From Lunularia cruciata (Eukaryota; Streptophyta; Marchantiopsida; Lunulariales; Lunulariaceae), in the NCBI GenBank assembly GCA_948567375.1, contig OX419756.1, positions 1,679,001-1,743,000 of the forward strand: DNA of 64,000 nt, given 5' to 3'. Each line of letters opens with the position of its first letter. The first letter of the stretch is position 1. The notes beneath the pieces are model-generated. The model did not search any database. It was not told the origin of the DNA and saw only the letters and a list, made by a program, of their open reading frames with translations. This document shows, piece after piece, positions 42,142 to 64,000 of the stretch. A program made the translations under genes and the position numbers.

Positions 42142-42543
42142 TGTAAAAGATCAAGACCAAGGAGAGAAATAGGAGAATGGAAGATCACATTGGGACACTT
42201 GAGTGTGGGAAACTCCGAGTGCCTTGCATGAGCTTTGGTTTTGGTATTTATAGGAAGCATACAAGGCTCTTGAGAAGCTTCTCAAAAATTTTCCTTGAGC
42301 CACTTTCTTGGAGTGCAAGGCAAGTTAATCAAGAAGCTTCCTTCTAGAAGCTGCCTACTTGGCATGCAAGCTAAGCTACTTGGAAGCTTCTAGAAACTTC
42401 CTTCTAGAATCTACCTACTTGGAGTGCAAGCTAAACTAGTCAGGAATCTTCCCAAATACTTTTGGACTATTCTAGGTTAATTTGGCCTATTTGCTACTTC
42501 ATTAGCCCTAACTAACTTCAATGCTAAACTCTATATTGTTACA
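42142..42543 (-). repeat. 5' LTR of chromovirus copy 3 (402 bp)
   Basis: Minus-strand ends TGTAACAATATAG and CTTTTACA, next to the primer site at 42130-42140. TATA-like TATAAATACC near 42243 (minus). Confidence 0.9.
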
Positions 42544-44369
42544 ACTATTGTGATGGGTCCTAACAAAAAAGGATGTCCATCATGTAAGAATCTTTTTGCT
42601 AAATGAGAGACCACAAGGACCCAAGCTTTGATATATGATTTTAGTGATGTGGCCTCTTGGTCTATGAGGCTGCATCTACCCATGACTATGAGAATGCTAT
42701 CTACTACTTATGCCACTCATTTGATAGCTATAGAAGAATGCATGGCCCTAAGAGTGTAGAGAAATTATACCAAATGGTGTTATCAAATATCCTCAAGTGT
42801 GGTAGCAATATCTCTAGAGGAGGGAAATTTTGTGCAAAATATGAGGTCCTAAGAAGTAAGATCATGCAAGAATAGAATAAGCTACTTGGATATTCCACAA
42901 CTAAGGTTAGAGATTAATATGGGATGTGGCTTTGACTAGGGTGTTTGAAATGAAAGTACTACTATAATCCTCTTATCCCAAAGGAGAGTTTTTACAATAA
43001 TCCTCCTATCCCAAAGGAGAGCCCAAAACTCTCAAACCACCAATCAAGACATAAAATCTTGGTAGGAAGTTAGAGGAAGTCAAGACCGTACATGGGCTCC
43101 AAAAGTTTTATTAACTAGTCTAGACTTGTAAACCACCCAAAACCTCCAAGCAAAGTGCGAAAGCAATATGCTCAAACTACATCCTCCAAAGGGCCCACTA
43201 TATAAATCTCATCCAAGAGGGAAGCAAAAAGATAAGACTAAAAATCAACTGTCACTTGTTGAAGAGTAGTGTAATGTGCTATGGCAAAGAGAAGCCATCC
43301 CAAGGGATATCCTTACCATGTGCACTTTATTGAATGCCAACTGTGTGAACTCTCCACTACTAGTATGGTGGCTATACAATAGAGGTGTCTCTATACCATA
43401 AAAAGTACATACAAATAGTATCAAGGAGGAGATATGATCTTCAACTAAGCAAAGAGCATGAAAAAATGCTAGACAAGAGATGGTATTGAAAGCATTTGAG
43501 ACATCAACTTGAACCACCACTCAATCTGGAAGAATGTCCAAGGTGCTCAAATGCCTAAAATCACTATCTCACACTTCCTTAGAGTAGCCATTGCAAACTA
43601 ATGAAGAGGCAACATGAAAAAAATAGTCTAATGCAATTGTAGAAAAAGAGCACAAGAAATCAAATGCAAAACAATATCTCCAATGGTAATGGATACACAC
43701 GTGAGGTCTCCTTTGTAAGATCTAGGAGACAAGAAGCATCACAAAGATGAGTTGCTCTAGGGAGCACCTTGCCTTAGGCAATGCACTCACTAAAAGCTAA
43801 TAGAAGAGGAAATCCCAAGTTTGGAGCATTTGGGGAGAGGCAATCCTCTAGGTGCTCAAAAACTAGCCTAGATGGTTCACCCATTGAGAAATGCGAGGAG
43901 TGGAGTAATGCATGAGCAAAGTAGGACTCAATAAGCTATAACTCCTCATCTATTTGGTAGTCATGGAAGATGGATAGGAGGTCCTTAGTGGTAGATAGAT
44001 GTAGTATCAATAAACCAAATAGAGTGTCCAAGGAGAAGAGCACTATTTGAGAGGGTGAGACTACTTGGGTTGCACATCTGTATTTACCTACCTAACTTAA
44101 CATCAAGGAGTAAAAAAGGTAATGATGCTTTGGTGGTAGGACATGGGGTTGTGGAGACTCTATAGTACACGGAGTAAGAACCTAGGCACTAATAGTGTCC
44201 TCCTTTTGGAAGGCTGCCCAATCTCCTTTCAAAAACCTATGAATCCTAGAGGCAATCTCACAATGTCTTAAAGCACTTCCATGAGCTAGAAGGAGTAATG
44301 TCTACTATGAGAAAAGAACCAATAAAGTCCAAGTGGAGACATCTCTGCCATGCTCAATGGCCATAATAT

Positions 44370-44422
<53 letters not shown>

Positions 44423-44755
44423 GTGTGTGTGTGTGTGTATGTGTGTGGAGCCAATTAGAGGGTGCAATGGAAAGGGAATCAGAGTGTACATATGTGGTCA
44501 AGGTAAAGTTGGTAGGAATGCTTGGAGAAGCTCCTACAAGTGTAACCAAGAATACAAGTCTTGGGGAGCTTGGAAAGCCACTACCAGCATACCAATAGGG
44601 TGGTCTAAAGGGGTAGGACTAGTAGTGGCCTTAGCTTGCATATGCAAGCAAGAGACCTCCTTCTATGGTAGGCAAGTTAAATCCTCTACCACTGACTTGG
44701 ACATTGATGGAGCGGGATGTATGGATGTGATAATGGCCTTGGTGTAGATGTCGTG
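42544..44755 (-). mobile_element. Old RLE-LINE F, 5' and RT part
   Basis: On the minus strand the frame 43245-43520 shows VVQVDVSNAFNTISCLAFFH, clearly homologous to HVDVENAFNSISHASIF of copy A's RT. Upstream, 44220-44350 matches copy A about 12785-12920, and the 5' truncation is near 44755. The zinc-finger part is missing or unrecognisable. A (GA)n(GT)n microsatellite has expanded within it. Confidence 0.75.
44372..44448. repeat. (GA)n(GT)n microsatellite
   Basis: About 24 GA units followed by GT/TATG units. It lies inside old LINE F and creates spurious long frames on both strands. Confidence 0.95.
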
Positions 44756-44853
44756 CGTATATACATCGCTACACAACATACATCGCTGTCAACATCATAC
44801 ACTATAAAAGCACAACTCACACATAAGTCATACATAGACTCTAAAGTGCCACA
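44756..44853 (-). repeat. Possible 3' LTR remnant of the methyltransferase element
   Basis: Directly after the polypurine tract (AGGGGGGCGAT, 44854-44864) the minus strand continues TGTGGCACTTTAGAG, a plausible TG LTR start. It is cut at about 44755 by old LINE F. No matching copy was found upstream of gag, so this is tentative. Confidence 0.4.
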
Positions 44854-45022
44854 ATCGCCCCCCTAGCTGGCGGTTAGGTCCCTCTAACTCCAGATAGCCA
44901 TCTACTCTAAGTATATGGTATACCCTCTAATGGGCAAAGATCAGGAGGCCGGGTGCTATGGAGCCCCATCGTTAGTCGCCTGTATGCAATCTATACCATA
45001 TAAAGAATGAACTAGCTATAGG

Positions 45023-45724
45023 TCAAATACATCTAGGACATAACCACTGTCCCTGAGGAACCAACATGAGGGGAGGAGTCATACATGCCATATGCCATCC
45101 TCTCGAACAGCTATCACACACTAACATAGTAGCAGCTCCACCAGAAGAGCCACATAACATACACCTCAAGCCTGTACGTACAAGTGCCAAGCTTGGGTCC
45201 ATAGTACCATCAATGTTTGGAAGGTGGCATGGCGCACAATTGCGCACATGATCCTTCCAAACAACACCATCACGTCCTTCTAACACAAGGACTCCAGATG
45301 GCAAAACCTCACGCACTCTCAAGATAGTGCGGCCCATAGAAACATCAAGTGTCATCGGTGTTGTCTGCTGTAGATATACATAGTCGCCTGGATGAAATCG
45401 ACGGATCGAGGGTCTATAACCTCCTCCTCGAATGGTAGCATAGCGTAAAGTATCTCTATGCTGAGCAATCACCAAGTTCTCAAAGGCCATCGGCATCACT
45501 CTCCGAAAGATCTCTGCCCGCTGAGAACATGCACTCATCCATACATCGGGGTCATCCAAGTCCAAAACTATAGTAGCATCTCGACGAATGGCTGCAGGTA
45601 AATCTGGATCTCGTCCATAGAGTAGGAAGTATGGAGAGAAGGATGCTAAGGAGGCTTGCCGGCTGAACCGATAGCCCATGGCCAACCAAGGTAACTGGAG
45701 ATCCCAATCTCCCAAGTGGCCTCT
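45023..45724 (-). CDS. Integrase C-terminal domain with PHD finger
   Basis: The frame is in phase with the integrase above, separated only by a TAG at 45725-45727. It contains the integrase tail (GDWDLQLPWLAMGYRFSRQA, SPYFLLYGRDPDLPA, RRFHPGDYVYLQQTTP) and then, at residues 185-229 (45029-45163), a textbook C4HC3 PHD finger: CMLC, LVCDSCSRGWHMAC, and GQWLCPRC. PHD fingers read histone H3 tails. Its position is where chromoviruses carry a chromodomain, so it probably guides integration or tethers the complex to chromatin. The invariant Trp before the last Cys pair and all eight metal ligands are present. The TAG upstream is probably a mutation. Confidence 0.88.
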   Translation of the reverse strand, partial: RGHLGDWDLQLPWLAMGYRFSRQASLASFSPYFLLYGRDPDLPAAIRRDATIVLDLDDPDVWMSACSQRAEIFRRVMPMAFENLVIAQHRDTLRYATIRGGGYRPSIRRFHPGDYVYLQQTTPMTLDVSMGRTILRVREVLPSGVLVLEGRDGVVWKDHVRNCAPCHLPNIDGTMDPSLALVRTGLRCMLCGSSGGAATMLVCDSCSRGWHMACMTPPLMLVPQGQWLCPRCI

Positions 45725-47356
45725 CTACAAACCATACTTTCGCAATCCTCTCTTCACCGTCTGAACCACTCTCTCTGCTAAGCCATCTGCCTCAGGGTGA
45801 TCTCGGGATGTAGTACGATGATCAATCAAAGCCTTGTCACACAAGACCTGAAACTCTCCCAAGAACTCTGTACCCTGATCAGTCAAAACCTCAGCTGGTG
45901 CACCAAAATGACTAAGAACTCGATCCAGGAACGAGTAAGCTGTCCCTTCACTAGACTTGTCAGGAAGTGCCACCAACTCAATCCACTTGGAGAAGTGCTC
46001 CACCATCACCAAAACATACCGATGATGTCTCACAGTCAGCGGTAAAGGTCCGGCGAAGTCCAAAATCCAACGGTAACCCAATCCCATGATAGGTAATGGG
46101 TGTAACTGTGGCGTAGGAGCATTGAATGATGCTCTAACTCGGTCACAAACCACACATCTGGCAACAAACTGCTGTACCTCGGTCTGCATACCGCGCCACC
46201 AATAATGACTCTGGAGTAAGCTATATGTACGCTTTACTACAAAATGTCCTAGCTCCTCATGAGCATGACGGACCAACTGTGGTCTCTGTGATGGAAGTGG
46301 TACTACTCGCACTCTACCATCCTCCCATACACACAAAAGGTGTCTACCCTCCAATCTGAACCGTCTGGCTCGCTGAAGAACACGGTCTCTCTCCTTGGCC
46401 CCAACTGTGCCACCCACAACACCAGTGCGAAGATAGTCCATCACTAAGACATCATCATGAATGTCTCGCTGAACTGTACCAGTATCTTCACTCTCTGGAT
46501 TTGTGACCTCAATAACTCCTCCTATATGCGCTGAGAGAGATACCACCAATGTCTCTGCAAATATACACAGAAAGGCTGATGCATGCCAACCTGGCACCAT
46601 CTCCTCATCTGTCTCACCATGCCAACGTGCTCCGGTCTGATCCTGCTGGCTGGGACATGGGTTTCTACTCAACCCATCTGCATCACGGTTCACCACTCCA
46701 GGTTTGTGAACAACCGTGAAATCATACTCCTGTAAAATCAGAGCCCATCGTGCAAGCTTCCCTGAAAGCTTGTCGGACTCCATCAACCACTTCAGCGGCT
46801 GATGATCAGTGATGAGAGTGAAGGGGTTACCAAATAGGTAACATCGGAAATGTGCTACTGCCCAAACTGCTGCCAAGCACTCTCCCTCATATGAACTATA
46901 CTTCGCCTCCGCTGAATTGTTGGAGCGACTAGCATAGGCCACCACAAACTCCTTCTCCTCATCATCATGCTGGGTGAGCACCGCTCCAAGCCCCAACATA
47001 CTCCAATCAGTGTGAACCTGAAATGGTCGTCCCCTGATCGGTCTCCTCAAAATAGGAGCAGATGTCAACCTCTCCTTGAGCTCTACAAAAGCTCTCTCCT
47101 GCTCATCTCCCCAACACCACTCCTGTGTAAGCTTGGTCAGCTTCGTCAAGGCCTTGGCAATGGCACTAAATCCTCTAACATAGCGGCGATAGAAGTTCGC
47201 CAACCCAAGGAATGCTCGCACTCTGCTCACATCCGTAGGCCAAGGAATACGTGCAATAGCCTCCACCTTGGTCTGCTGAACACCAAGTCCTCCGGGGTAG
47301 ATAGTGTGACCCAAATACTCAACCTGCTCATGGAAGAACCTACACTTCCTAAGATG
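45725..47356 (-). CDS. RNase H and integrase catalytic core
   Basis: The long frame (first usable start at 47314) begins at the RT thumb (MGHTIYPGGLGVQQTKVEAI), then RNase H with D103 (HTDWSMLGLGAVL), E143/E145, D170 (TDHQPLKWL) and D211/D213 (NRDADGLSR), then integrase. The integrase has an HHCC zinc site (H352, H357, C387, C390) and a complete DD35E triad: D419 (ILDFAGPL), D479 (LTDQGTEF) and E514 (GLAERVV). The frame is in phase with RT, from which one TAA (47357-47359) separates it. All catalytic residues visible are intact. Confidence 0.93.
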   Translation of the reverse strand, partial: HLRKCRFFHEQVEYLGHTIYPGGLGVQQTKVEAIARIPWPTDVSRVRAFLGLANFYRRYVRGFSAIAKALTKLTKLTQEWCWGDEQERAFVELKERLTSAPILRRPIRGRPFQVHTDWSMLGLGAVLTQHDDEEKEFVVAYASRSNNSAEAKYSSYEGECLAAVWAVAHFRCYLFGNPFTLITDHQPLKWLMESDKLSGKLARWALILQEYDFTVVHKPGVVNRDADGLSRNPCPSQQDQTGARWHGETDEEMVPGWHASAFLCIFAETLVVSLSAHIGGVIEVTNPESEDTGTVQRDIHDDVLVMDYLRTGVVGGTVGAKERDRVLQRARRFRLEGRHLLCVWEDGRVRVVPLPSQRPQLVRHAHEELGHFVVKRTYSLLQSHYWWRGMQTEVQQFVARCVVCDRVRASFNAPTPQLHPLPIMGLGYRWILDFAGPLPLTVRHHRYVLVMVEHFSKWIELVALPDKSSEGTAYSFLDRVLSHFGAPAEVLTDQGTEFLGEFQVLCDKALIDHRTTSRDHPEADGLAERVVQTVKRGLRKYGL

Positions 47357-48136
47357 TTATTTGAGTCCATGAGATCTCAACCTCTCAAACACCTCCAACA
47401 ACTGTCTCTCATGCTCCTCCACAGTAGTGCTATACACCAAAATGTCATCAATATAGCATCGAGCAAAATCCAGTCCAGCTAGGATCCTATCCATGACCCT
47501 CTGGAACTCAGCAAGAGCATTCTTCAACCCAAATGGTAAGAATCTCCACTGATATAACACATCCTTACCGTGAGGATCAATAGCCCAAAATGCTGTCTTG
47601 GACTTATCTTCCTCCTTGATCGGCAACTGATGATATCCCGCTCGAAGATCCAAAGTACTGAAGACCTTTGCATGCCCAATCGCATCAAAAATCTCCTCCG
47701 GTGTAGGCATGGCATACCGATCAGCCCTGGTCTGTCGGTTGATAGGACGGTAATCTCCACACATCCGCCTATCTGTATAGTTGCCATGCATATCCTTCTT
47801 AGCTGGCATCACTGTCGCTGATGCATACTCTCTATGTGAAATCTCCACCAAACCAGCCTCAAAAAGGTCACTACTCCGGCTCTGAATCAATGTCCTCTCC
47901 ATATCACTATATCGATAAGGACGTCGGAAAACTGGTGTGTCGCTAGTCAGCTCAATCCGTATACCAGGTCCCTTCAGAGCACCCAAATCCTTCATACTGA
48001 AGGCAAAACAACTCGTGTGACTCCTCAAGAACCTCCAAACCCTCCGTCTTTCCTCTCCAGTAAGCTTGGGTCCAAGATCTGGCTCCCAAGTATCCTCTGT
48101 AACTGTAGTAGGAGTGGAAGACGTACTGACTGGCTG
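47357..48136 (-). CDS. Reverse transcriptase polymerase domain
   Basis: Reading starts directly after the TAG that ends the methyltransferase (48137-48139), with a short linker, then GIRIELTSDTPVFRRPYRYS, MPAKKDMHGNYTDRRMCGDY, STLDLRAGYHQLPI (first catalytic Asp), FLPFGLKNALAEFQRVMDRI and the active site CYIDDILVYS (YxDD intact). A TAA after RSHGLK (47357-47359) interrupts the thumb. The domain is typical Ty3/Gypsy. The methyltransferase is thus the direct N-terminal neighbour of RT in one phase. Confidence 0.93.
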   Translation of the reverse strand, partial: QPVSTSSTPTTVTEDTWEPDLGPKLTGEERRRVWRFLRSHTSCFAFSMKDLGALKGPGIRIELTSDTPVFRRPYRYSDMERTLIQSRSSDLFEAGLVEISHREYASATVMPAKKDMHGNYTDRRMCGDYRPINRQTRADRYAMPTPEEIFDAIGHAKVFSTLDLRAGYHQLPIKEEDKSKTAFWAIDPHGKDVLYQWRFLPFGLKNALAEFQRVMDRILAGLDFARCYIDDILVYSTTVEEHERQLLEVFERLRSHGLK

Positions 48137-48145
48137 CTACACTGG
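48137..48145 (-). other. Putative stop-codon readthrough signal TAG-CAG-CCA
   Basis: On the minus strand the methyltransferase stop TAG (48139-48137) is followed by CAG CCA (48136-48131). This fits UAG-CAR-YYA, the tobamovirus-type leaky context. RT continues in the same phase. Confidence 0.6.
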
Positions 48146-49477
48146 GCCCTTGGGAGCAATAGTGTCATGCTCCTGACCTCTAGAGGTCCCAACCTCTGTG
48201 TGAAAAACTCCCTCCACTCTGGCTGCAAGCTCCATACGTCCTCTGGCTGCATCCCATGTGGACCAAGGGTGTAATCCAAGTAGCCCACGCTCACCTGGAT
48301 GGACTCCAAGTAGACCACTCTCCCTAGTAGCTACTGGATGTGTCCCAAGAAAACCATGTCCACTCGGTCCATCGCCCCCAGCATGTGCCTGAATCGTCTC
48401 GATAGGCACAGGGCTCACAAGTGTCCGAGTGGTGATGCCTATCAAGCGCATCCTACGCTGCTCTGCCAAACCAAGGCTCACAATCCAGGTCAAACAGTTC
48501 AGGTCCATAGCCTGACCTAACACCTGACGCCTGGATGCCTCTGACACTGCTGGAACAGCGGTAATACCGGTGCAAAAACCCATCGCCCGCTCTCTCTCAT
48601 CAGCATTGGGCTCCACCAACTGCTGTAACTGTGAGTCCCAAACAAGTCCAGGTCCTCCCTCTCGAAAAGCATGAGAGCCTGGGAAACTCATGAGTGTGGG
48701 AAATGCAGCTCTAGGCTGTCCAACTAGGTTCACCACTGCCATGGGTGACCTATCAGCCACTACCACTGTCTGAGACTGACGCCCAACATCCAAGATATCA
48801 TCAACAAGGATGTGGTCAAGTCGCTGAATCCCATCATAACTACGCTGTAGAACCTCTCTGGGTAAAAGGTTCGTCCACCAAAGACGAAGACGATGAGCCC
48901 GTGATCCCACTCTGGCTGCATCTAACAATACAGCAGGTCCCATCCAAGAATGGACCTGATGTGTACTCGCCACCACTCTAGTGCGAGAATCACCCATCAA
49001 TGGAACGTTCTCCAAAAGGTAAGCTGGAGAAACAGACTGATGAACCTGGAGATGTCGTAGTATCCGTAACATCTCCCAAAACACACCAGAACAAGGATCC
49101 TGAAGACCCAAACTGCGGCCCGCACGTGTATGTCCCTGACATGGCCATCCAGTAATCACCAAGTGAACAGGCCCATGTCTCTCTAGGTCATGCGCCCCCA
49201 GTAAGGAAATGTCTCCTGGTAAGGCCTTCTGGTAACCTCTGACTGCTGACATCGGTAATAACTCCGGATACCGATAGGACAAGTGTGCCACATGATGTAG
49301 AGAGACTTGCCTAGCAGTCTCATCTCTCTCTACATACAAGTACCTCTGTACTCGGATACCCGCCTGTAACACCGCAGCTAGTCCGGTGCTGATCCCACCA
49401 AACAACTCCAATAGGCATATCCCCTCTACTGGGTACTGCCAAGCTACACAACTAGATGCTTGTGGTATCCAGAGGTG
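48137..49477 (-). CDS. Cytosine-5 DNA methyltransferase (DNMT3-like) carried by Gypsy element
   Basis: The enzyme would transfer a methyl group from S-adenosylmethionine to cytosine C5 in DNA. Numbering from the LELFGG Leu codon at 49411: motif I ELFGGISTGLAAVLQAG (2-18), acidic motif II YVERDE (26-31), motif IV GWPCQGHTR with catalytic Cys91 (codon 49139-49141), motif VI LLENV (132-136), motif VIII SRAHRLRLWW (170-179), motif IX ERERAMGFCTGIT (272-284) and X RRQVLGQAMDLN (294-305). Motif order is unpermuted, unlike plant DRM, and the HRxRxxW motif VIII and short target-recognition region resemble DNMT3. There is no ATG before motif I; the frame opens after TGA 49478-49480 and overlaps the protease frame, suggesting expression by frameshift. 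A Gly-rich tail of repeated G(L/F)LG.HP leads to a TAG in a readthrough context. Confidence 0.93.
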   Translation of the reverse strand, partial: HLWIPQASSCVAWQYPVEGICLLELFGGISTGLAAVLQAGIRVQRYLYVERDETARQVSLHHVAHLSYRYPELLPMSAVRGYQKALPGDISLLGAHDLERHGPVHLVITGWPCQGHTRAGRSLGLQDPCSGVFWEMLRILRHLQVHQSVSPAYLLENVPLMGDSRTRVVASTHQVHSWMGPAVLLDAARVGSRAHRLRLWWTNLLPREVLQRSYDGIQRLDHILVDDILDVGRQSQTVVVADRSPMAVVNLVGQPRAAFPTLMSFPGSHAFREGGPGLVWDSQLQQLVEPNADERERAMGFCTGITAVPAVSEASRRQVLGQAMDLNCLTWIVSLGLAEQRRMRLIGITTRTLVSPVPIETIQAHAGGDGPSGHGFLGTHPVATRESGLLGVHPGERGLLGLHPWSTWDAARGRMELAARVEGVFHTEVGTSRGQEHDTIAPKGPV

Positions 49478-51308
49478 TCAAAGCAATCGCCTCTGGAGGC
49501 TCATCCTCACACTCATCCCCTGATGGTACGAAGGCTCCACTCCAAGCCTGCTGCACCAACTGATCTGCATGCTGCTGCAATGCCTCCTCTGAACTCCACA
49601 ATGGAACATCCAAGGTGGATGGAACAATCCCACTCGTACTCCATAGCCGAGTGATCTCCTCTGGTACTGGAGTATCCTTTGCATGGGCGTTCCCCTCCAA
49701 CAAGTCACCAGGCCAAGTAACTGCACCGCTGAAAGCCAAAACTGATGCTGCCATGGTCCCGGACTGTAGTGAGCCAAGACTGCCACTACTAAAGCGTACT
49801 GGTAGGCGACATACCCGTCCCTCACCAGACTGCCAACCAGGTCTATAAGAGGCTGTCTCCTCCCAATAGTCAATACTGAAACCCATAGGGTATAACACTG
49901 CTCCCCCAACTAGCACATCATAGGACTCAGCTATCGTCGCAATAGCCTGAGCTCTCACCACCGAGCTATCAGTCGGATGACCAGGCTGAACCTGGACAAC
50001 AAGCTCTCCACGTGTGATGTACTGTGTCGAACCACCACCAAGAGATGTCTGGATCTGAAATGGACACCTCTCCACATCGGTCTTCCGTAACTCCAGACCA
50101 ACAACTGCAGCCTTCCCCAACATAAGGGGCTGCGCACCAGAGTCTAACAAGACTCTCTGTGGTGTATAGACCTTCCCTGAAGGTCCTACCAAACGAAAGA
50201 TCCCCCTCTGGTTATCCAATAGGACAACACCAGGTGTAAACCGCGCTCTCTCAAAGGCCGGTCTAGCTGGCAACTCCTCCAGTCTAGCCGCTGCTGCCTG
50301 CCATAAACCACTGGTCGCTGAACGGATCCCATGCTCCTCAACCAAGTCAGCTCCACTACCAACCACCTCTGCTCTAGTAGTAGGAATTGCACCATTCCTA
50401 CTCTCACACAACGTGGCAGCCAACCGAAACACTGGGGCTGGGTCCACTCCCAATGTAAACATGTCACTGGCTGAAAATAAAGGATGCCGCATAATCAGCT
50501 GAGCCGCCCCCAACATCATGCTAGACTCAATCTGTGTAGTAGCAGGTGGCTGACTAGTAGGTACTCCATCAGGTACTCCATCACCACCTACCACACCTGC
50601 ACTGGGATGTCTAGGAACCATGGATGTCGTCTGCAATGCCTCAGATAGCGTGAAAGACTGGGGAAGTCTGACCTGTCTCCCAACCTCTCCTCTCTGTGGG
50701 TCCAACTCCACTGATGCTCCTCTAGGCTCTGGAGCACGTACTGCACTCCTAGTCACTGCTGCAGATGCATCCACCTGTGCTGCTCCGCACATGAAGTCCA
50801 AAGCATCTCTATCACCAGCATATGAGGTGGAAGCCTCAGCACCCAAATCTGATCTCCTCTGAGCAATAGCCATACTAGCCAATCTCTGCTCCAACTGCTC
50901 AATCCGAGTAGCCATAGCTATGTCAGAAGTAAGGGCAGGTACTGCACCCCTACTAGGTGTAGATCCTCTACCACCACCTCTACCACCTCGTCCTCCATGA
51001 ACTGGAGCTCCTCTACTACCTGTCATAGCAGCCCTACCACTCCGTAACTCCGGGTGTAGGTCAAAACACCGGTCACTAGTATGACCAAATCTATGGCAGT
51101 GCTCACACTGCCTCTGTGCTGGCTGTGATGCACCAGAAGTATCAGGTCCGCTGCCCTGAGTACACTCTCTCTTATGGTGAGGTCCACCACAAGTCCAACA
51201 AGCAACACCACCACTCACTGGCTGCTGTTGACCCGAAAATGAGGGTAAGGGTCTAACTCCACTAGGCCCTCCACTCGCTCCATAGGATCTGGGCTGTCCA
51301 CCCTGTCC
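49452..51308 (-). CDS. Two CCHC knuckles and aspartic protease of the methyltransferase element
   Basis: A long open frame (588 codons from a GTG at 51218) continues Gag in phase after TGA 51309-51311. It has knuckle 1 CWTCGGPHHKREC (residues 7-19), knuckle 2 CEHCHRFGHTSDRC (38-51), an Arg/Gly-rich stretch (GGRGGRGGGRG), a long low-complexity linker, and a retropepsin with RVLLDSGAQPLMLG (D359-S-G-A). RGG plus CCHC would bind element RNA. The frame ends at TAG 49452-49454, 23 nt after the methyltransferase frame has opened, so a +1 shift in that window would fuse protease to methyltransferase. Confidence 0.88.
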   Translation of the reverse strand, partial: GQGGQPRSYGASGGPSGVRPLPSFSGQQQPVSGGVACWTCGGPHHKRECTQGSGPDTSGASQPAQRQCEHCHRFGHTSDRCFDLHPELRSGRAAMTGSRGAPVHGGRGGRGGGRGSTPSRGAVPALTSDIAMATRIEQLEQRLASMAIAQRRSDLGAEASTSYAGDRDALDFMCGAAQVDASAAVTRSAVRAPEPRGASVELDPQRGEVGRQVRLPQSFTLSEALQTTSMVPRHPSAGVVGGDGVPDGVPTSQPPATTQIESSMMLGAAQLIMRHPLFSASDMFTLGVDPAPVFRLAATLCESRNGAIPTTRAEVVGSGADLVEEHGIRSATSGLWQAAAARLEELPARPAFERARFTPGVVLLDNQRGIFRLVGPSGKVYTPQRVLLDSGAQPLMLGKAAVVGLELRKTDVERCPFQIQTSLGGGSTQYITRGELVVQVQPGHPTDSSVVRAQAIATIAESYDVLVGGAVLYPMGFSIDYWEETASYRPGWQSGEGRVCRLPVRFSSGSLGSLQSGTMAASVLAFSGAVTWPGDLLEGNAHAKDTPVPEEITRLWSTSGIVPSTLDVPLWSSEEALQQHADQLVQQAWSGAFVPSGDECEDEPPEAIALTPLDTTSI

Positions 51309-52326
51309 TCAAAAACCAACTGGGCGTGGTGCACTCTGCTGCACTCTAGAAGAAGTCACAACCGTGGATGAGGTCTCTCTACCAAATCCAGCTGTCACCA
51401 CTCTCTCCTCCACCATGTTGAGCTCAATACGCTTAGCCAAACCAAAGACTACTGCCAAAGTGGGCGAAGTAGCCTGCAACAACGTAGCATCACGAACTCT
51501 ACGTCGCAACTCCCTGTCTAGTATCCCATACCAAAACTGGACTGCTTGGGCCTCAGTAACTCCCTGAGTGAAACTGATCAGCCGCCTCATGCGAGTGTAT
51601 GCCTCGCGTAGGCTCTCTCCAGCCTTTCGCTGGAACTCCTGCAAGCTCCTCAGCTTGTCAGTCCGCACTCCCTGGTAGTTCTGCCTCAAACATAGGAAGA
51701 ACTCCACCATGGGGTTAAACCCCGGTACCACACCACCTCATGCAGCGGTACTTCCACTCGTAGTAGCACTATCTCCAGCTAGTGCACCTCCACTAGCTCC
51801 ACCAACACTACTCGAGCTAGAACTCGTAGGTACAGCCGACCTACTCCTGGCCACCGAACCTTAAGTGATGGAGACATAGTGTGGAGACCAATACTATCTC
51901 CATAACTCAATCTCCTCCAAATGAGCTCTCCTGAACTCATGGTAGTCGTCCATCGGTGGACCCTCCAAGTGCTGAAACAACCCCTTCCATGCCATGAAAG
52001 GTGTGAACAAAGTCGGGTTCCGCATCTGCTGCAGATCACACCAACTATCGAACTCCTGGATGAAGTCATCCAACTCAATGGTACCCACTGTACCAGTAAC
52101 GCCTAGGGCCTTTGGAGGCCCCATAAATCTCGTCCATGTCCCACAACAACGGTGCGGACACACCAAGTGCACTCTCAACTGAATCAGCTCCTGTGTCGAA
52201 CTCCAACTCAGAGTCAATCTCCTCCCTCACTGGGACCTGAGATACAGGCTGATACCAAGCACCACTCCGAGTAAACCCATTGCGTACTGCAGGGCTAACT
52301 CCTCTGGAATCTCCAAAGAACTCCAT
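51309..52326 (-). pseudogene. Gag of the methyltransferase element, interrupted
   Basis: The likely start is ATG at 52326 (MEFFGDSRGVSPAVRNGF). A frameshift near 52130 leads into GTIELDDFIQEFDSWCDLQQ and FMAWKGLFQHLEGPPMDDYH. The same phase then runs through TAG (51894), TAA (about 51860) and TGA (about 51737) into the second half, FNPMVEFFLCLRQNYQGV, LREAYTRMRRLISFTQGV and LDRELRRRVRD, which is the Gypsy Gag capsid fold. It ends at TGA 51309-51311. This is the most damaged module of the element, and every stop is one C-to-T change from a CAA, CAG or CGA codon. Confidence 0.8.
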
Positions 52327-52895
52327 CGTGACCACGTAACTGCAACAGCAAACCCGAACCACCAACTGCAACCACAAGTCGCAACCGCAAGTACCCCACC
52401 AAGTGCCAACACCGCCACGTGCCAACACCAACTAAACACCACCCACTAATGTAACTCTAACCGAGATAACTACACTAGGGGAAGGGCAACTTGTAACCTG
52501 CCATCATAACACGCACTCTCACGGTCTGCAGGTCATCACTTCCTGCCTCACCGGAGAGAAACAAAGGTAGTCTGACTGGTCATCACTCCAGCCTCACCAC
52601 CGAGAGCACACCAGAGCACCAACGCTCAAAAGTCAAGGCACCTCATACAAACGTGGTGCACAAACAGGAAGCAGAGAATGGAGGGGATCCAATCACAAGA
52701 AATCTAAACAAAAACCCTCCATCTCATAACACAACACGGGACTGACTCTGCCGCCATTTGGCATTTGACATAAGAGTAGTTCGTATCTAAGTCCTAAGCT
52801 ACCAGGATCACCAAGAATGGGATCAAACTGCCTCTCCTAGCCAAAGCTACATGTGTATAGATAACAGTGGCACAGTCACTATGACAACAAGTGAG

Positions 52896-52961
52896 GGTGG
52901 ACCAGTTGGCTAGGGCACCAGTCTAGGAACAAGAGATCTAGGGGTCAAACCCTGTTGCGCA
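52896..52961 (+). other. tRNA-like sequence, possible SINE head
   Basis: GGACCAGTTGGCTAGGGC resembles a tRNA D-arm/box A, and about 25 bases later GGGGTCAAACCCTG resembles the T-arm/box B. Acceptor arms do not pair, so it is not an intact tRNA gene. A tRNA-derived SINE or chance is possible. Confidence 0.3.
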
Positions 52962-53158
52962 CAATCTAGCAAGAAAGGCAGATTTTGCCAACCAATGACC
53001 AAGATCTACACTAAACTAGCTAGCCTCACGCCAGCAAGCTGGCTTTCTGGCCCTTCTAGGCCTTCATAGCCTCTCATAGCCCACAGCCCTATGCCTCGAA
53101 GCCTCTAAACGCCCAAATGAGGCCTTTCTTGTTGCCACTTCGAACCTCCTCCAAAATT

Positions 53159-53291
53159 GGTGAAACTTCTCCAAATCTGCGAAACTCCTCCAAACTAGCG
53201 AAACTTCTCCAAATCTAGCCAAACAGCGAAACTCCTCCAATTCTGGCCCAAAAATCTGACATAAATCTGACGTAAAATCTGACGTAAACCC
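53159..53291. repeat. Short tandem repeats (GCGAAACTYCTCCAAA and ATCTGACGTAAA)
   Basis: Four degenerate units of about 20 bp around gaaactcctccaaa (53159-53244) are followed by three units of atctgacgtaaa (53253-53288). Confidence 0.75.
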
Positions 53292-54000
53292 TAAAGATGG
53301 ATATCCGCCAAATCCCCCGCTAACTTTCCACTCGAGCCAAATTGACAAAACGGGTTTTTCTAAATCACAATTTCATGAGAAGAGCTTTCCAACTCCACCT
53401 TCAATTTCACTTTCTGAGCCCAACTCGCAGCAAATTGGTCCTGCCTTCACCTCTTGAGCTCAAAATCACAACACTACTCAAAAATTGCTCCTTCTTTGCT
53501 CGAAATTTGGCCAGCGCTTCCGCACACCGTCCGCCTAACTGCCAAATTTGCATCAACTACACGAGCTTCTGCACACTAGGGAAACATAGAACCTGAATCG
53601 AGCTACCACGATCCACCGAGCTTGGAGATACCACCAACACTCAATGTTCCTGCACCCGATTTCCCCCTGACTTCACTTCTCTGATATAATCAGATTGCTT
53701 AACACTTTCAACTCAACTCAACTCAGATCAGTACTTGATTTGTCACTCTATAAACTGCCAACAATTGGGCACTGATTACAGTCAAGCCACACCCACTCAA
53801 GCATAGAGAATCCAGGTGACGCTCGCCGGCCTCTGTCCACCATAGCCAGGAACTCGAAGGCTCAACATCAGAGAAGTGAGCTCTCTAGAGCTCACTTCGA
53901 AACTATACCCCCTGGACTCGAGCTAGCCCTGAAACCCTAACGGTCCCGTTGATGGCACACTCGACGGTGCAAACGGTGCAAAGTGACGGTGGGCCCCACC

Positions 54001-55680
54001 ATGAAGTCAGTACCCCAAACACGAAATCTAACCGTCGGAAAGTAGTCCCTGAGAAACAACTAGAATAACTCTAACTACCATCACTGGAACTCTAGTGTCC
54101 GAGCATCTAGATGCGGAACTACAAATGGCGTGACATAGAAGAATGATCTTGTGTTGGTGGTGGGATGGTATTGGTGGGAGGATGGTGTAGAAGGTCCATG
54201 GGAGAAGATGAGGGGTAGGAGGGTCAAGTGGTGGAGCATCCTCCATAGAGGAGTCATCCTTTATAGGGCCCATCAATGGTAGAAGAGAAGTATGTGATCT
54301 AAGGATCAAAGGGACTCCATCTAGATAAACCTTGAGATTGTGGATGTATCTTCAAATAGACAAGATAAGGGTCAAGCCCTAGGTTGCACATATGGAATGT
54401 GGAGTACCAGATAAGGAATGACACAAGACCAGGTGTTCTCTCTATGGTCTTGTGCCAAGGAGCAGAAGGGAAGCATGAAGAGAGATGCTACAAAAAGTGT
54501 ATACACCCTAAAGAGGACAAAGGAAATGCCATCCTAAATGAAGAACAAGACTAAATGTCAAAACAAAAAAAAGATAAACAAAAAGGACAAAAAGAACCAT
54601 ATAAGAAAGAGCATGTAAGGTAGGTGAGAGGGCATGGTTGTGGTATCTAAAGATCTCCTTCTTCCTCCAACATCCAATCCCCTGGTTGGTCCAACTGCCC
54701 AATCGTCCCAAAAGTGTCAACCTCTAGTATAAGAACCTCCAAGAGAAGAACTATATGATAAAAGAACTAAGTATGTGGAAAAATCCCTAATTCTCAAATG
54801 GATTGATACCTCATATATATTGAACCAAATGGGGCTCCCCTATTATGCTGCATTGGTCTCCAAATTTCCCAAGCCCAAGGCTCCAATCTAGGAATACACG
54901 TTGCTACTTTTTGAAGAATACATCTCACTAATCAATTATCCTTGCTTGTACAATACCAAAACCTACTTGAGTAGACATGCATACCTTTTATTGAGCTACC
55001 GTGAGATTTTTTCTCACAAACCTACTACATAATTGCATGTTTGATATGTCCAACTGCAATATTAGTCTCCAAGTTGATGTACTACTAAATTATGATTTTT
55101 GTGCTTGTGTGAGCTCCAAACACCTATAATCTGGCCCCAATATATAGTGTTATTATATTACCTACGTTTTTCATTTTGATAAGTTTTCAAGAAGAAGTGT
55201 ATTGTTGAAGTCGAATTGAAGCAGAATGAAGAAGAAAAGAAAACAATCATGTGTTTGGCATAGACCCAAAGAAGTCTACCTTGGGTCAAAGTTAGAAGGA
55301 CTCAGGTCAGACCTCAAAAGGATAGACCCAAATTAAGGATACTTTGCTTTGAGATGTGCAACCCAATCTAAAGAGCATGTAACAACTTTTCCTCATGCCT
55401 AGCCAATCAAGAAAGTATAAGTAAAGAAAATGGCTACCTCAAGATCAAGATGACATTGAGAGTGACAAATAACAGACATGTAGAATTTCCGTGTCAATTG
55501 AAGATCAACTAAGGGATGACCCTGCAGAAAAAAACTATATGATTGAGACTTCATTGAGGGAGTTTCGAAATGTCACAACAGTATCCCATGCTTCTCAATA
55601 ATTGTCCCAAAGGAGTTAGGATCTTGGGTTTTGGGCAGGGTTTGCTCTTTTAGAGACCAAGAGTTAAAAAGCACATGATG
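54001..55680. other. Spacer without recognisable genes
   Basis: The 93-codon minus-strand frame 54028-54309 is Pro-rich without known motif. About 55180-55680 precedes the gag-only element and may hold its leader. No 5' LTR for that element is seen here. Confidence 0.35.
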
Positions 55681-58141
55681 CCACCAAAGGGTAGTAAGCA
55701 AAATTTGGCAAGGAGTCTTGAAATTTTCATATTAGACATAGTGGTAAGGGATTGAAGTCTGAGTAAACTTCATATCATCTTTTTGGCATGGAAATGAAAT
55801 TTGAGCTTTCTAGGATTCATGGCAGAAATTGTTGTGTTGTGAAGTAGCAATTGTGAAGATGGTCCCAAGATAGAGGAAAAGAGAGTAAGTCTGGCTTGAT
55901 GGACTAAGTCGGATTGGAGATTAGTCTTGGGGAGAGAAGTAGGAGGAATTACCTTCTATCAAAAGTGTGATTCTTTGAAAGAAACAATCAAGGTGAGGAA
56001 TTCTTTCAATGCTCTTTCCAAGAAGAATGGGTACAAGGTGGATAGCTATAAGGACCGAATATGAAGGGGTATAGTCATTGTGATGATGGACATGTTTAAG
56101 CTTGAGCAAACTACCTATGTGATGAAGCAATATGTTGTGTTCTTCACTAGATGTTTGCAAGTGAAGCGGTGAATTGGGCAAAGTGTTTTCACCAACAAGT
56201 AGGTTAGATGATTAGTAGTTGGAGAATAGACCTACCACCCCATTTACTTTGAACCTTTTGCAGCCCATTCCTATTTTGGACTGAACCTACTTAGCTTGGA
56301 GGAGAGAGGAAAGATGGTGTCACACTTTCACCCTGATTTACAATGAGTAGCAGATGAAGACAAGCAATACTACATATGCCAAGTTTATGAAGGCAATAAC
56401 CACTACATCAAGAATGGGAAGGAGTTTATAGTGTAAGTGGAAATCCCAAGGCCAAGGAAGAGGTGTAGACCCAAAAGAAGAGTATCATTGTTGCAGCCAC
56501 AGAAGATAAGGAGGCTGAATCCATGAGATGTGGTGGTGAAGAATCATTCATTGGATAAAGAATTGGAAGGAGAAGCTGCATCAAAGTGTAAAGAGTTGGG
56601 AGAAGAAGAAGAGCTCGTATTGCAAAGTAAAGAGTCTAGCAATGAGAGTGAGGAAGAACACTAAGTCTAGCAATAAGTGGACTAAATGGTGGGGGAAGAA
56701 GATGAGGAGTTCCATGCGGCAATTGATCATATGAAAGGAGGAGATGCACCCTATTTGGAATTACCTGTAGTGGAGTTGGAGGAAGAAAGAGCAAGAGCCA
56801 GTCTTGGTGTTTCCAAGAGCAATATGTAGGTTGCAATTGTAGGACTGAGTAAAGCTAAGGAGGAAGAAGAAAGCTTAGGAGAGGTAACGTTAAAGGTATA
56901 AAGATCAAGACTTCGGAGTAAGGCACCAGCCAAAGAAGCACCAACCAAAGCCAAAGAAAGAGAAGACAATGTAGGAGAGTACATTGGAGTTGCATACATA
57001 TCAAAGATTGTCTATCCTTTGTTGTTGCAACTACAAAAGAAGAAGGAAGAGTTGAAGAGTTGAAGAGAGAGCATCTTGAAGTGAGGGATGAGCTCAATGT
57101 AGTGAAGTTCTTGAATAAAGAAAACTCAGAGTTAAGAAGGAACTTAACCCAAGGAGAGGAAGAAGCCAAAGAACTTTAGGTTGATGTTGTTCTTTGGATG
57201 AAGACTTTAGAGAATTTGCATGAGAGTTTTTTGAAGCATGAGGAGGAACTTGACCAACAAGCTAGAGAATTGAAGGAGTAGAAGATAACATTCTGGAAAT
57301 TGAAGGGAGAATTCACTACTGTGTGCTTGGAGGTGCTACATTCAAAGGTGGTGGTGGTGGTGATGGAGCAAGAATTGGAGATCATGAGAAAGAGCATAGA
57401 GGAGAAGAATTAGGACTGGCAATGTAAGTTAATAAATCAAAATAAGGAGGAGGAAAGGTTGCAAGGATGGATCAGAAGTGTGGAGACTCCACTTGTTCAA
57501 TATGTGGAGGAGAAGAAGGCACTAAAGGCAGAATTTGAGAATGAGTTGAAGATGTATTGGAATGAGTTGGAAGCAGAGAGAAGTAGAGAGACAATAATTC
57601 CAAGGGTTGTATTGGACTCAATCAAAGAATCATCATGAAGTTGAGGGTGATATTAAGCACTGAAGCCAAAGTGAAGTTGGAGGAATCAAGACTGCATGAG
57701 TTGGAGTTGCTTGTGTAGGAGATGAGGAAGCAAAAAGTGAAGGACATAGATATGTATAAGTTATTAATTTGGTTGAGAGATCAAGTAGATAGGAAAATTA
57801 ATGAAGAACAAGATAATGTCTATCTTTGATTAGATTTAGTGAGTTATGAATAAGATGAGCTTTGGAGTAGTGAGAAAATAGAAACCCAATGCAAAGTAGC
57901 AAAGATAGGAGTATAGGTGTCTTTGGGTGAGTTAATTGAGACATTAGAAGAAGTTATAGGAGAGAAGAAAAAGGTAGATAGTATAAACATGACTTCAATT
58001 TTAGTTTAGACTAGAGAGAGGTTAGAAATTGAAGAAGAAATCATAGTAATAGTTGAACCCAAAGTAGAGGAAGCAAGTGAAGGTAATTGGGGTGTAGAAG
58101 CCAAAGTTGAAGTAGATATTGGATCAGATTAATAACAAATT
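55681..58141 (+). pseudogene. Gag-like coiled-coil gene of a gag-only LTR element, copy 1
   Basis: From ATG at about 55681 (MPPKGSKQNLARS) the reading parallels the minus-strand copy at 60561-61986 block by block: SYKDRI.RGIV, EPFAAHSYFGLNLL, KMVSHFHPDLQ, a long Glu/Lys-rich stretch, then ESRLHELELLV and LLIWLRDQVDRKI. Many stops break it. The protein has no protease, RT or integrase motif. An N-terminal globular part followed by predicted coiled coil would suit a structural Gag. The element must borrow enzymes from an autonomous relative. Family unknown; TR-GAG-type elements are the nearest described concept. Confidence 0.65.
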
Positions 58142-58930
58142 TGAGATTCAAAGAGACAAATACAAAGAGATGCATTGTCATTTTGGATCTACCGGTTGGT
58201 AATGTAGTAGTTGAAACGGTATTTAGATAGATAATTGCCAAATTGCTTTGCTTATTTAAAGGAATCATTCATAATGTTGTGTTGTTTAGTATTTATATTT
58301 TCAAAGTTGAGTAAAGCAAAGTGTTGTAACTTAGTGCTCATTGTTTCAGTTTAATTCAGAGTATCAATCATGTGTGTGTGCTTGTAAGTGTTTGGAGAAG
58401 TTTGAATTGCAAGTCTAAGTGTGTTAGAAGTTGGATTTTGTAGCATTGGTGTTCATCCCATGTGTTTGGTCTTGAGTGGATAGCAATCAAAACAATGCCT
58501 TGACAAATTCGTGAAGAATTGTAGTGTTGGTAGTATTCTGCATTTGGGAATGCAATGCTGGATTGATGCAAAGCAAATTTGATTGAGGAAGTTGTGCCTT
58601 CAATGGAGGGGTGGAACACAATTCTAAGGTGAATTCAGAAAGCTCGTGGTGAAGTAGCCTTCTTTGGGAAGGACTAAATCATCACAATCAGTGTCAAACT
58701 AGAAAGGATTTGAAGCATTGTGATTATGGGTGTTGTGATTTGTGACAAGATTGTAAGTTAGCAATTGTTACTCTCTTTTGAGTGTGGTTTCTACTCAAGA
58801 GATGTAAGACAAGTCAAGAAGAATTGCTTGTTACAATTTACTTTATATTTGACCATTTTTGACTCGTATGTCTATAGGAATGAACTATTACTTATAAATT
58901 ACCACAAAAGTGATACTTGTTGGGTTATCA
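58142..58930 (+). repeat. 3' LTR of gag-only element copy 1 (789 bp)
   Basis: Ends TGAGATTCAAAGAG and TTGGGTTATCA. It is homologous, inverted, to 59768-60551. No 5' partner was recognised before 55681. Confidence 0.75.
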
Positions 58931-59767
58931 TAGCTCCTCTCTCCCCTTGAAGACACAATTTTTCTTGAGCTGCACTAATTTCTCCTTCTAGAAATTGATA
59001 TCATAAATCTGCATTAACCATCTCTAATTCTATTCCCGTGTGTCCAAACTCTCATGCTTTTCTCTAGCTCAATTTTCTTTCCCATGCTCCATTTTGCACC
59101 CATGCTTAGTGCTTACAAATGCTTATTTGGAAAGTCCTTGTACATTAGAATGAATCAAGTGTAGTAACTCAATAGCATGAATTCCAATTGTTTCAACTTT
59201 TTAGTCTACATAGTCTAGAGCATCTTTGCGTGCTTCTTGTCATTGGAGAGCATGCAATGATGTGGGAGAATAATCTATGACAGCATCATGGGTAAAATTT
59301 TGACAAAGAACAATATTTCAATATGGAAGTAAAGAATGTCTACTTTCTTGGAAGGTCACAAATTATTTGATCTTGTCATAGGGGTTGAAACTTATCTAGC
59401 TACTACCCTAAAGATCCTAGTATATATGCTTGGCATGAATGTGTTAATCAAGCCAAGTACTATCTTTTTTTGTGTGTTTCACATTCATTTTTTGGTTACA
59501 TATAAGGCATTGATACTCCCTAGGAAGTTTGATATACACTAGAAAATGTATCTCAAGCATGAAGAAAGCAAAGAAAATTTGAATTGAAGCAACAATTAAT
59601 GAAGGTTAAGAAAGACAATTTATACATCACCAATGGTTTGGTTGTACAACTAAATAGAATTGGAGTTTGGGTTGTATATGATTAACTAATTCTACATAAC
59701 AGACAAGGTCTACATAAAGAGTATAAACTTTTTGAGATGTCTATAGCCATTAGAGATACATATTCTG
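58931..59767. other. Spacer between the two convergent gag-only elements
   Basis: No gene or repeat family recognised in about 840 bp of AT-rich DNA. Confidence 0.35.
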
Positions 59768-60551
59768 TGACAACCCGACAAATATCAATTTTGCGGTAAT
59801 CAAGTAAGTAAAGTTCATTCCCATGGAGATACTGGTTAGAATTGGTCAAATACAAAGTCAAACAATAACAATGTAGTTCTTCTTGATTTCATCTTTAATC
59901 TCTCAGGTAGCAACTACACCCAAAAGAAGTAACAAGCATTGACTCACAGTCTTGTCACAACTATTTGTCACCCATAATCACAACTCCATCAAATCTTTCC
60001 AAACAATCTTGATTATGATGATTCAAGCTTTCCCACAAATGGCACTTCACTGTAAAATGACTTTGCCTCAAAATTGTGTTCCACCCCTCCACTGAAGGCA
60101 CAACTTCCTTGATCAAAATTGCTTCAAATCAACACTACGCTGCACTCACAAATGTAGAATACTACCAACACTACAATTCCTCTTAGATTTGTCAAAGCAT
60201 TGCTCCGATTGCACTTCACTCAAGATCAAACACACAAAATAAAGTCAAGGCTGTGAAATCCAACATCTAACAAGCACTCTGACTTGTACTTCAAAATTCT
60301 CCATACACTTACAAACATAGACATAGAATTGATACTCAGAATTAAGCTCAAACGACGAGCATTGCTTCACAACACTTTGCTTTATTTATTCTCAAAATTG
60401 TGAGCAGTGAACAATATAAGATTGCAAATGCCACCTTTAAATAGTGACGCGATTAACAGTTACTTACAAAAGTATCGTTCTATAACAACTATTCTAACCT
60501 ACAGATCCAAAATGACAATGCCCCTCTTCATATCTACCTCTTCAAATCTCA
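59768..60551 (-). repeat. 3' LTR of gag-only element copy 2 (784 bp)
   Basis: Minus-strand ends TGAGATTTGAAGAG and TCGGGTTGTCA, homologous to 58142-58930. A third partial copy is at 4914-5055. Preceded on the minus strand by purine-rich GGATCGGAGTAGTAA. Confidence 0.8.
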
Positions 60552-60560
60552 AATGTGTTA

Positions 60561-61986: not shown

Positions 61987-62000
61987 TCTGGGTTGGGGGT

Positions 62001-62045
62001 TACTCTTCCTACTGATTCCCGGACCGGGAATCAGTAGGAAGAGTA
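62001..62045. repeat. Perfect palindrome, 22-bp arms with 1-nt centre
   Basis: The arm TACTCTTCCTACTGATTCCCGG (62001-62022) is followed by A and its exact reverse complement (62024-62045). It lies at the 5' edge of gag-only copy 2 and just before Copia sequence. Confidence 0.95.
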
Positions 62046-62109
62046 GAAATTTTGCTTTGAGGGTTTGATAAAGAGGTAGAGGATGTTGAACTTCACTTCA
62101 TGGAGGTAT

Positions 62110-63930: not shown

Positions 63931-64000
63931 TGAAACAAATGGTTGATCAACCACATAGTTCAGAAATTCTAATTCCTTTAGAATAAGGATATAATTGCTT

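Follow-up and report, generated by a model that had tools for sequence, protein, structure and literature searches.

Why should a retrotransposon carry its own cytosine-5 (C5) DNA methyltransferase (MTase), and how does such an element insert itself when plain long terminal repeats (LTRs) are missing from its ends? Both questions are raised by an element on the minus strand of a 64,000-nucleotide stretch of the genome of the liverwort Lunularia cruciata (contig OX419756.1, positions 1,679,001 to 1,743,000, here C2:1679001-1743000), which we call the window. Taken together, the observations are best explained by a Ty3/Gypsy family with an anciently captured DNMT3-like MTase, a coding plan in which a first open reading frame (ORF1) is extended by stop codon readthrough, and insertion from complementary DNA (cDNA) whose ends have been joined, a reading to which we give a probability of about 0.6. 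A preliminary description, made from the letters of the window alone, had the element at 44756-52442; this span does lie inside it but misses the 5' part, the whole element running from 44749 to 54135. The features of this copy, in window coordinates, are the following.

44749-54135, minus strand: whole element copy, of the form A-internal-B (without A2-B2), 9387 bp, ends TGTC..GACA
54136-54139, no strand: target-site duplication TCTA, 5' side of the element, identical to 44745-44748
53687-54135, minus strand: repeat A1, 449 bp, beginning TGTCACGCC
53865-53879, minus strand: predicted self-primer TCACTTCTCTGATGT, complementary to the primer-binding site (PBS) and presumed 5' end of the RNA; 15/15 nt in copy L014
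53673-53687, minus strand: PBS, immediately 3' of A1
51309-52431, minus strand: Gag region, in several broken frames in this copy (Retrotrans_gag E=0.0033, below the cut-off; compare the open ORF1 of copy L009)
49452-51308, minus strand: open frame with the Gag C-terminal zinc knuckles and aspartic protease (PR; LLDSGAQPL), motifs by eye
48140-49477, minus strand: DNMT3-like C5 MTase, open frame of 446 codons with no stop (PF00145 E=6.6e-7)
48137-48139, minus strand: conserved TAG, then CAGCCA (CARYYA readthrough context, as given in PMC4132726)
47360-48136, minus strand: N-terminal part of reverse transcriptase (RT), ended by a stop in this copy (RVT_1 E=1.6e-22)
45728-47356, minus strand: end of RT, RNase H (RH), zinc finger and core of integrase (INT), ended by a stop in this copy (RT_RNaseH 1e-36, Integrase_H2C2 3.9e-17, rve 2.2e-12)
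45026-45724, minus strand: C-terminal part of integrase and PHD finger (about 45166-45026; PHD E=8.9e-11)
44856-44864, minus strand: polypurine tract (PPT) AGGGGGGCG, immediately 5' of B1
44749-44855, minus strand: repeat B1, about 107 bp, ending GACA
44745-44748, no strand: target-site duplication TCTA, 3' side of the element, identical to 54136-54139

What kind of element is this? The order PR-RT-RH-INT with a DDE integrase (RVT_1, RNase H and rve by Pfam; PR by motif), the short target duplication and the TG..CA ends are those of Ty3/Gypsy. The two plain identical LTRs of that group are replaced by split repeats, and because the repeats are split, no direct repeat of at least 60 bp is found in 42500-55500. 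The integrase C-terminus has a PHD finger by Pfam and no chromodomain, the mark of chromoviruses. Seven window frames were scanned with Pfam; none has a tyrosine recombinase, and the Gag/zinc-knuckle/protease frame at 51308-49452 gave no match. DIRS, PAT and Ngaro elements have a tyrosine recombinase and no target duplication; here there is a DDE integrase with a 4-bp duplication instead. The window copy is defective, with one stop within RT and one within integrase, and it is broken at the PR/MTase boundary, because PR and MTase differ in phase where L009 has a single frame. Its own PBS has one change relative to the complement of the self-primer. Downstream stretches reveal a fuller layout, A1-internal-B1-xx-A2-B2, in which B meets A across two nucleotides (the B|A junction) and A2 meets B2 directly (the A|B junction). 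Of 20 further copies 19 were readable, and each of these has B1-xx-A2, while A2-B2 is missing from the window copy and from the 3' end of L017.

The genome searched was that of L. cruciata itself (566 Mb). A PF00145 profile search gave 123 scored matches out of 2161 candidates, and 20 stretches were fetched from the match list: one host gene (L028) and 19 copies that match the window element, in the module order first described, at 95.6-98.2% identity over 6.2-9.4 kb. The preliminary claim that an uninterrupted C5 MTase lies between PR and RT on the same strand stands for the window copy, by frames and Pfam and well outside what chance would give, and the MTase is present in 20/20 copies. Because the first copies had been found through the MTase, a second set of 20 short stretches was chosen independently of it, by the B|A junction, and 19 of them have MTase sequence at the expected place; a family lacking the domain, with an insertion scar in the window copy, is thus not what was seen. 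The twentieth stretch (L075) is to all appearances an internal deletion, since other element sequence, from the Gag region, stands at the MTase position. Allowing up to 2 mismatches, a 26-nt MTase probe matches the genome 3415 times (reversed control, 0), and repeats A1 and A2 are mostly 96-99.8% alike; the family is very abundant and fairly young. Transitions make up 154/184 of the A1-A2 differences (16 of 18 copies measured), which would be the pattern of methylated DNA, but the host has methyltransferases of its own. By eye and by motif, its genes include DNMT3-like (L001, L004), DRM-like (L002, L028) and CMT-like (L003) ones, L001 having also been compared with PDB.

The enzyme was proposed in the preliminary description to be DNMT3-like and unpermuted, and PDB search, AlphaFold model and Foldseek all agree. 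The C5 motifs PCQ/PCN, ENV and the R-x-R of motif VIII are present in unpermuted order, and PF00145 is matched at E=6.6e-7. A phmmer search of PDB gave DNMT3A at 6.9e-11, DNMT3B from 5.8e-8, M.HaeIII at 0.008, DRM2 at 0.039 and DNMT2 at 0.39. For the AlphaFold model (alignment of 46 sequences, mean pLDDT 80), the best 50 of 187 Foldseek matches at E<=0.001 are all DNMT3 entries, the best having E 2.5e-18, TM 0.81 on the target and 22% identity. By profile, PDB and fold the MTase is nearer DNMT3 than DNMT1, DNMT2 or bacterial enzymes. In a tree with two DNMT3s (human DNMT3A and the host DNMT3-like gene) and M.HhaI as the only references, all sampled element MTases stand together on a long stem, apart from both DNMT3s (100/100 without M.HhaI) and apart from the single bacterial enzyme, so that a grouping with bacterial contaminants was not seen. 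To judge by sequence, the element MTase is DNMT3-like and very divergent, and its origin likely lies inside DNMT3. The consensus over 17 diverse relatives retains GWPCQG, ENV and AHRLRxWWTN, with C113, Q114, W201 and N203 invariant.

How is the MTase expressed? In L009, a single 1428-codon frame comprises Gag, PR and MTase, and L010 has a frame of equal length; L013 and L014 have a 1037-codon frame that follows the stop, shares the phase of the MTase and spans RT to PHD. ORF1 is thus Gag-PR-MTase, with the MTase at its end, and ORF2 is RT-RH-INT-PHD. The preliminary description had MTase and RT in the same phase, and the phase is indeed common, but the TAG at 48139-48137 separates the two and the MTase belongs with Gag and PR. 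The stop closing ORF1 is TAG in 20/20 copies, and the six bases that follow fit CARYYA in all but one (19/20; exception L026). CARYYA is the readthrough context of Tobacco Mosaic Virus, according to PMC4132726. From the MTase frame, RT would be reached only by readthrough of this TAG. Some Marchantia and environmental proteins end about 60-130 residues past the MTase, which would agree with an ORF boundary there; some Marchantia gene models continue into RT, which may be splicing made by annotation.

Relatives among the matches listed come from Calypogeia fissa, Sphagnum, Marchantia polymorpha, Riccia sorocarpa and many environmental proteins, and no sequence named Klebsormidium is among the matches listed (best 120 of 137 and best 120 of 302 in two of the searches). 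A search of IMG/VR for relatives with flanking DNA gave three pattern matches, none confirmed. Mapping the domains of 154 proteins yielded two module orders: Gag-PR-MTase, then RT where the protein extends so far (bryophytes and some environmental proteins), and RT-RH-MTase-INT, often with PHD (environmental proteins without species name only). In both orders a PHD finger comes after integrase in the proteins long enough to show it. The order RT-RH-MTase-INT-PHD is found in the environmental Gypsy polyproteins P0142, P0143, P0145, P0147, P0149 and P0151. In the MTase tree, the RT-RH-MTase-INT order forms one group (100/98) with P0088 inside it; in a second tree, without M.HhaI, this group is weaker and not starred. 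In the RT-RH tree three rows represent the bryophyte type, and they form a starred group. The MTase of the environmental order would either have moved within pol or been captured twice, and the simplest reading is a single MTase lineage relocated within pol. P0028, labelled as a Candidatus Obscuribacterales metagenome-assembled genome (MAG), falls within the element MTase clade and is probably eukaryotic contamination of a bacterial MAG.

Where do the ends of the element lie relative to its replication signals? B begins immediately after the polypurine tract AGGGGGGCG, and A ends immediately before ACATCAGAGAAGTGA, the PBS, whose exact complement is found inside A; the chance expectation for such a self-complement in that locus, allowing one mismatch, is 0.01. 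(A tRNA PBS was considered and rejected: only ATCAGAG resembles what we take to be the initiator-tRNA site, and the 15-nt self-complement fits better.) With a PPT before B and a PBS after A, the reverse-transcribed LTR would be B+A, and the ends used by integrase would fall inside that LTR. Since the LTR would be B+A while the insert runs from A to B, the A|B join would be one of cDNA tip to cDNA tip. That insertion occurs at the A start and B end is indicated by perfect 4-bp duplications there in 15/17 copies with both ends found, out of 19 examined (18 fetched copies and the window copy); L016 and L027 have no readable A1, and L020 has two A starts, of which the inner was used. In L020, near position 328, a copy is inserted within the A repeat of a copy of the same family, with the duplication CCCA.

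If tips are joined, the A|B junction should carry the traces. With anchors at the join, A|B has 1492 matches (reversed control, 0), and among the first 100 matches listed, which in each of these searches are nearly all on C1, 5 are longer (+A in 3, +5 nt in 2). With anchors 7-8 nt off there are 755 matches, and 14/100 listed are length variants: +G in 5, +A in 4, +T in 3, +5 nt, identical to the PBS bases that follow, in 1 and -3 nt in 1. The B|A junction has 607 matches with tight anchors and 778 with equally relaxed ones, and 0/100 of those listed vary in length in either case, though letters mutate. With relaxed anchors, the difference has a Fisher p of 7.5e-5 (100 listed matches each). B|A length is also constant in 37/38 fetched copies, the exception (L057) being cut short. 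Most likely, integrase acts on end-joined, probably circular, cDNA.

A replication cycle of the following kind can be proposed. RNA would start within A1 and prime itself. ORF1 would yield Gag-PR-MTase, and a leaky UAG, to judge from the stop and its context, would add RT-RH-INT-PHD. Reverse transcription from the PBS after A to the PPT before B would, given the position of both signals, produce a linear cDNA of the form [B A]-internal-[B A]. The tips of this cDNA would be joined, in a circle or a concatemer, to create the A|B junction, as its position and its +1/+5/-3 length variation suggest. The DDE integrase would cut at the internal palindromic B-GC-A site, dropping the 2-nt spacer, and the product would be A-internal-B-A-B with a 4-bp duplication, of which the ends and the duplication are observed and the use of joined DNA is presumed. 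DDE enzymes act on abutted ends with a 2-3 bp spacer in the circle junctions of the IS3 and IS30 families, which are bacterial DNA transposons without reverse transcription. The PHD finger, instead of a chromodomain, probably guides integrase to chromatin. Its nearest solved structures include CHD4, PHF21A, KDM5B and UHRF1, and several of these bind unmodified H3 tails, which would make aiming of integrase at silent chromatin plausible. The MTase, present at a Gag-like dose in the particle, would most likely methylate the freshly made cDNA, and the insertion would then resemble silent host DNA from the outset. Methylation of the cDNA is the least supported of these steps, the activity and role of the MTase being inferred. 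A wider proposal is tentative, with the odds somewhat against it: that integration from end-joined circular cDNA is obligatory, with both ends cut from one mid-LTR B-GC-A junction and the circle methylated before insertion by a Gag-delivered DNMT3-like enzyme, perhaps throughout the split-repeat Gypsy-DNMT elements of charophytes and bryophytes.

Several observations weigh against this account. With relaxed anchors, 86/100 listed A|B joins share a single length, and ordinary end joining is usually less clean. With tight anchors the contrast between junctions is weaker (A|B 5/100 against B|A 0/100 listed, Fisher p 0.059). The youngest copy by A1/A2, L021, lacks a perfect duplication, as does L013, which, with only 90% identity between A1 and A2, is probably a recombinant. 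The predicted fold of the RNA leader pairs the PBS with the self-primer, but with a z of -1.51 it is no more stable than many shuffles, and thus supports the pairing without proving it. As for the enzyme, the C-terminal tail of the MTase model is disordered, and a stop lies inside the MTase in 8/20 copies of a biased set, 18 of them having been picked for their long frames. The MTase pN/pS in this set (0.42) falls between those of RT (0.29; RNase H, 0.28) and those of integrase and protease (0.52 and 0.53). The observed/expected CpG ratio in the element, 0.48, is not below that of the rest of the window (0.41 in 1-44700; 0.16 in 54200-64000), and CpG depletion was rejected as a sign of self-methylation, not being specific to the element.

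Could the A|B join simply be inherited? In the split-direct-repeat replication proposed for PAT and Ngaro, RNA would run from A1 into B2 and the B1-A2 block would template the ends, with no end joining. PMC5890265 gives this same A-internal-B-A-B layout for DIRS-type elements and for the algal element KnitGypsy-Dnmt3, and the single length of most listed A|B joins (95/100 with tight and 86/100 with relaxed anchors) is what inheritance would produce. On the other hand, such replication gives no account of the PPT directly before B and the 15-nt self-complementary PBS directly after A, nor of length variation in the A|B join alone, with PBS-side or extra single nucleotides. Furthermore, none of the seven frames scanned has a tyrosine recombinase, and there is a 4-bp duplication with a DDE integrase instead. 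We consider it unlikely. A narrower question concerns the A-internal-B form of the window copy: did it arise when B1 and B2 of a full element recombined, with loss of A2-B2, or is it a separate form of insertion? Recombination would leave the same TCTA duplication, and the form is seldom seen (in the window copy and, at its 3' end, in L017, against 18 and 19 copies with A2 in two sets). However, B is only about 107 bp long, and the same product would come from a one-LTR circle or from a single cDNA cut by integrase at both internal sites; the chances of recombination appear about even.

Does the MTase matter to the element at all? It could be a hitchhiker, or have a role other than DNA methylation, such as RNA binding, Gag structure or RNA methylation. 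Its position at the end of the Gag-PR frame would suit such a role, and no DNA methylation was detected in yeast with the KnitGypsy domain, a result that the authors of PMC5890265 call inconclusive. Nevertheless, a hitchhiker would lose the motifs and the four residues kept in 17 relatives, and we find this alternative rather unlikely. The history of capture is a separate matter. That the bryophyte-type elements (MTase between PR and RT) and the environmental ones (MTase between RNase H and integrase) acquired their enzymes independently would explain the different module orders, and an approximately unbiased (AU) test does not reject a grouping of the DNMT3s with the bryophyte-type sequences alone (p 0.30). 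It is nonetheless improbable: a long branch (100/100) separates all element MTases in the tree from the two DNMT3 references, the motifs GWPCQG and VEPNADERERAMGF are common to them, and both types share the INT-PHD succession where the protein extends so far. A single lineage relocated within pol thus remains the preferred history.

How do these elements compare with known ones? The precedents invoked in the preliminary description, captures reported by de Mendoza et al. in Klebsormidium and dinoflagellates, are indeed reported in PMC5890265. KnitGypsy-Dnmt3 of Klebsormidium nitens shares the Gypsy domain set, an unpermuted and intronless DNMT3-type domain, a number of several copies and A-coding-B-A-B repeats, the layout of the Lunularia family, though the window copy itself is A-internal-B. 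Its MTase is described as lying in the Pol ORF, whereas that of Lunularia ends the Gag-PR ORF before the conserved stop, a comparison by description only. PHD is not mentioned in the main text of PMC5890265, and its available part contains no target duplication, PPT/PBS or replication model for KnitGypsy-Dnmt3. SymbioDIRS-Dnmt3 also has a DNMT3 domain in a retrotransposon, split repeats and more than one module order, but it is DIRS-type with a tyrosine recombinase, and PMC5890265 states that there is no relationship with the Gypsy case. Tf1/Sushi and Tcn1 elements also prime themselves, with a PBS that pairs with what is taken to be the 5' end of their own RNA (PMC6317226, PMC4600332); these are chromoviruses, while the Lunularia family combines split repeats with an MTase and a PHD finger. 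The main text of the plant survey PMC6317226 has no mention of methyltransferase, PHD or Marchantia.

The Gypsy-DNMT3 kind is thus known, from one alga, Klebsormidium, the single published Gypsy case found. Among the papers listed by searches of the open-licence literature, PMC5890265 alone has split repeats with a DDE integrase and none reports a bryophyte Gypsy-DNMT element, and the available parts of PMC9033089 and PMC8616336 have nothing on Gypsy-DNMT elements. Against that literature, what is new is the abundance in a land-plant genome and the bryophyte relatives, the ORF plan with its readthrough stop and the PHD finger, and ends that suggest integration of end-joined cDNA. Insertion from tip-joined copies departs from how such elements are thought to work; it offers a concrete, checkable solution to the split-repeat puzzle and would reopen the question of integrase acting on joined cDNA ends. 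To our knowledge, that question is closed for retroviruses. Elements that carry a silencing enzyme also invert the usual arms race, and because liverworts and mosses have relatives of the family, what the enzyme does could be tested in a model such as Marchantia.

Two other Gypsy remnants lie in the window, both on the minus strand. At 25303-26106 there is a conventional chromovirus remnant with a Tf2-1-like SH3 and chromodomain, and at 51-2682 a further degraded Gypsy element, with gag and protease by Pfam and an apparent start of RT by eye.

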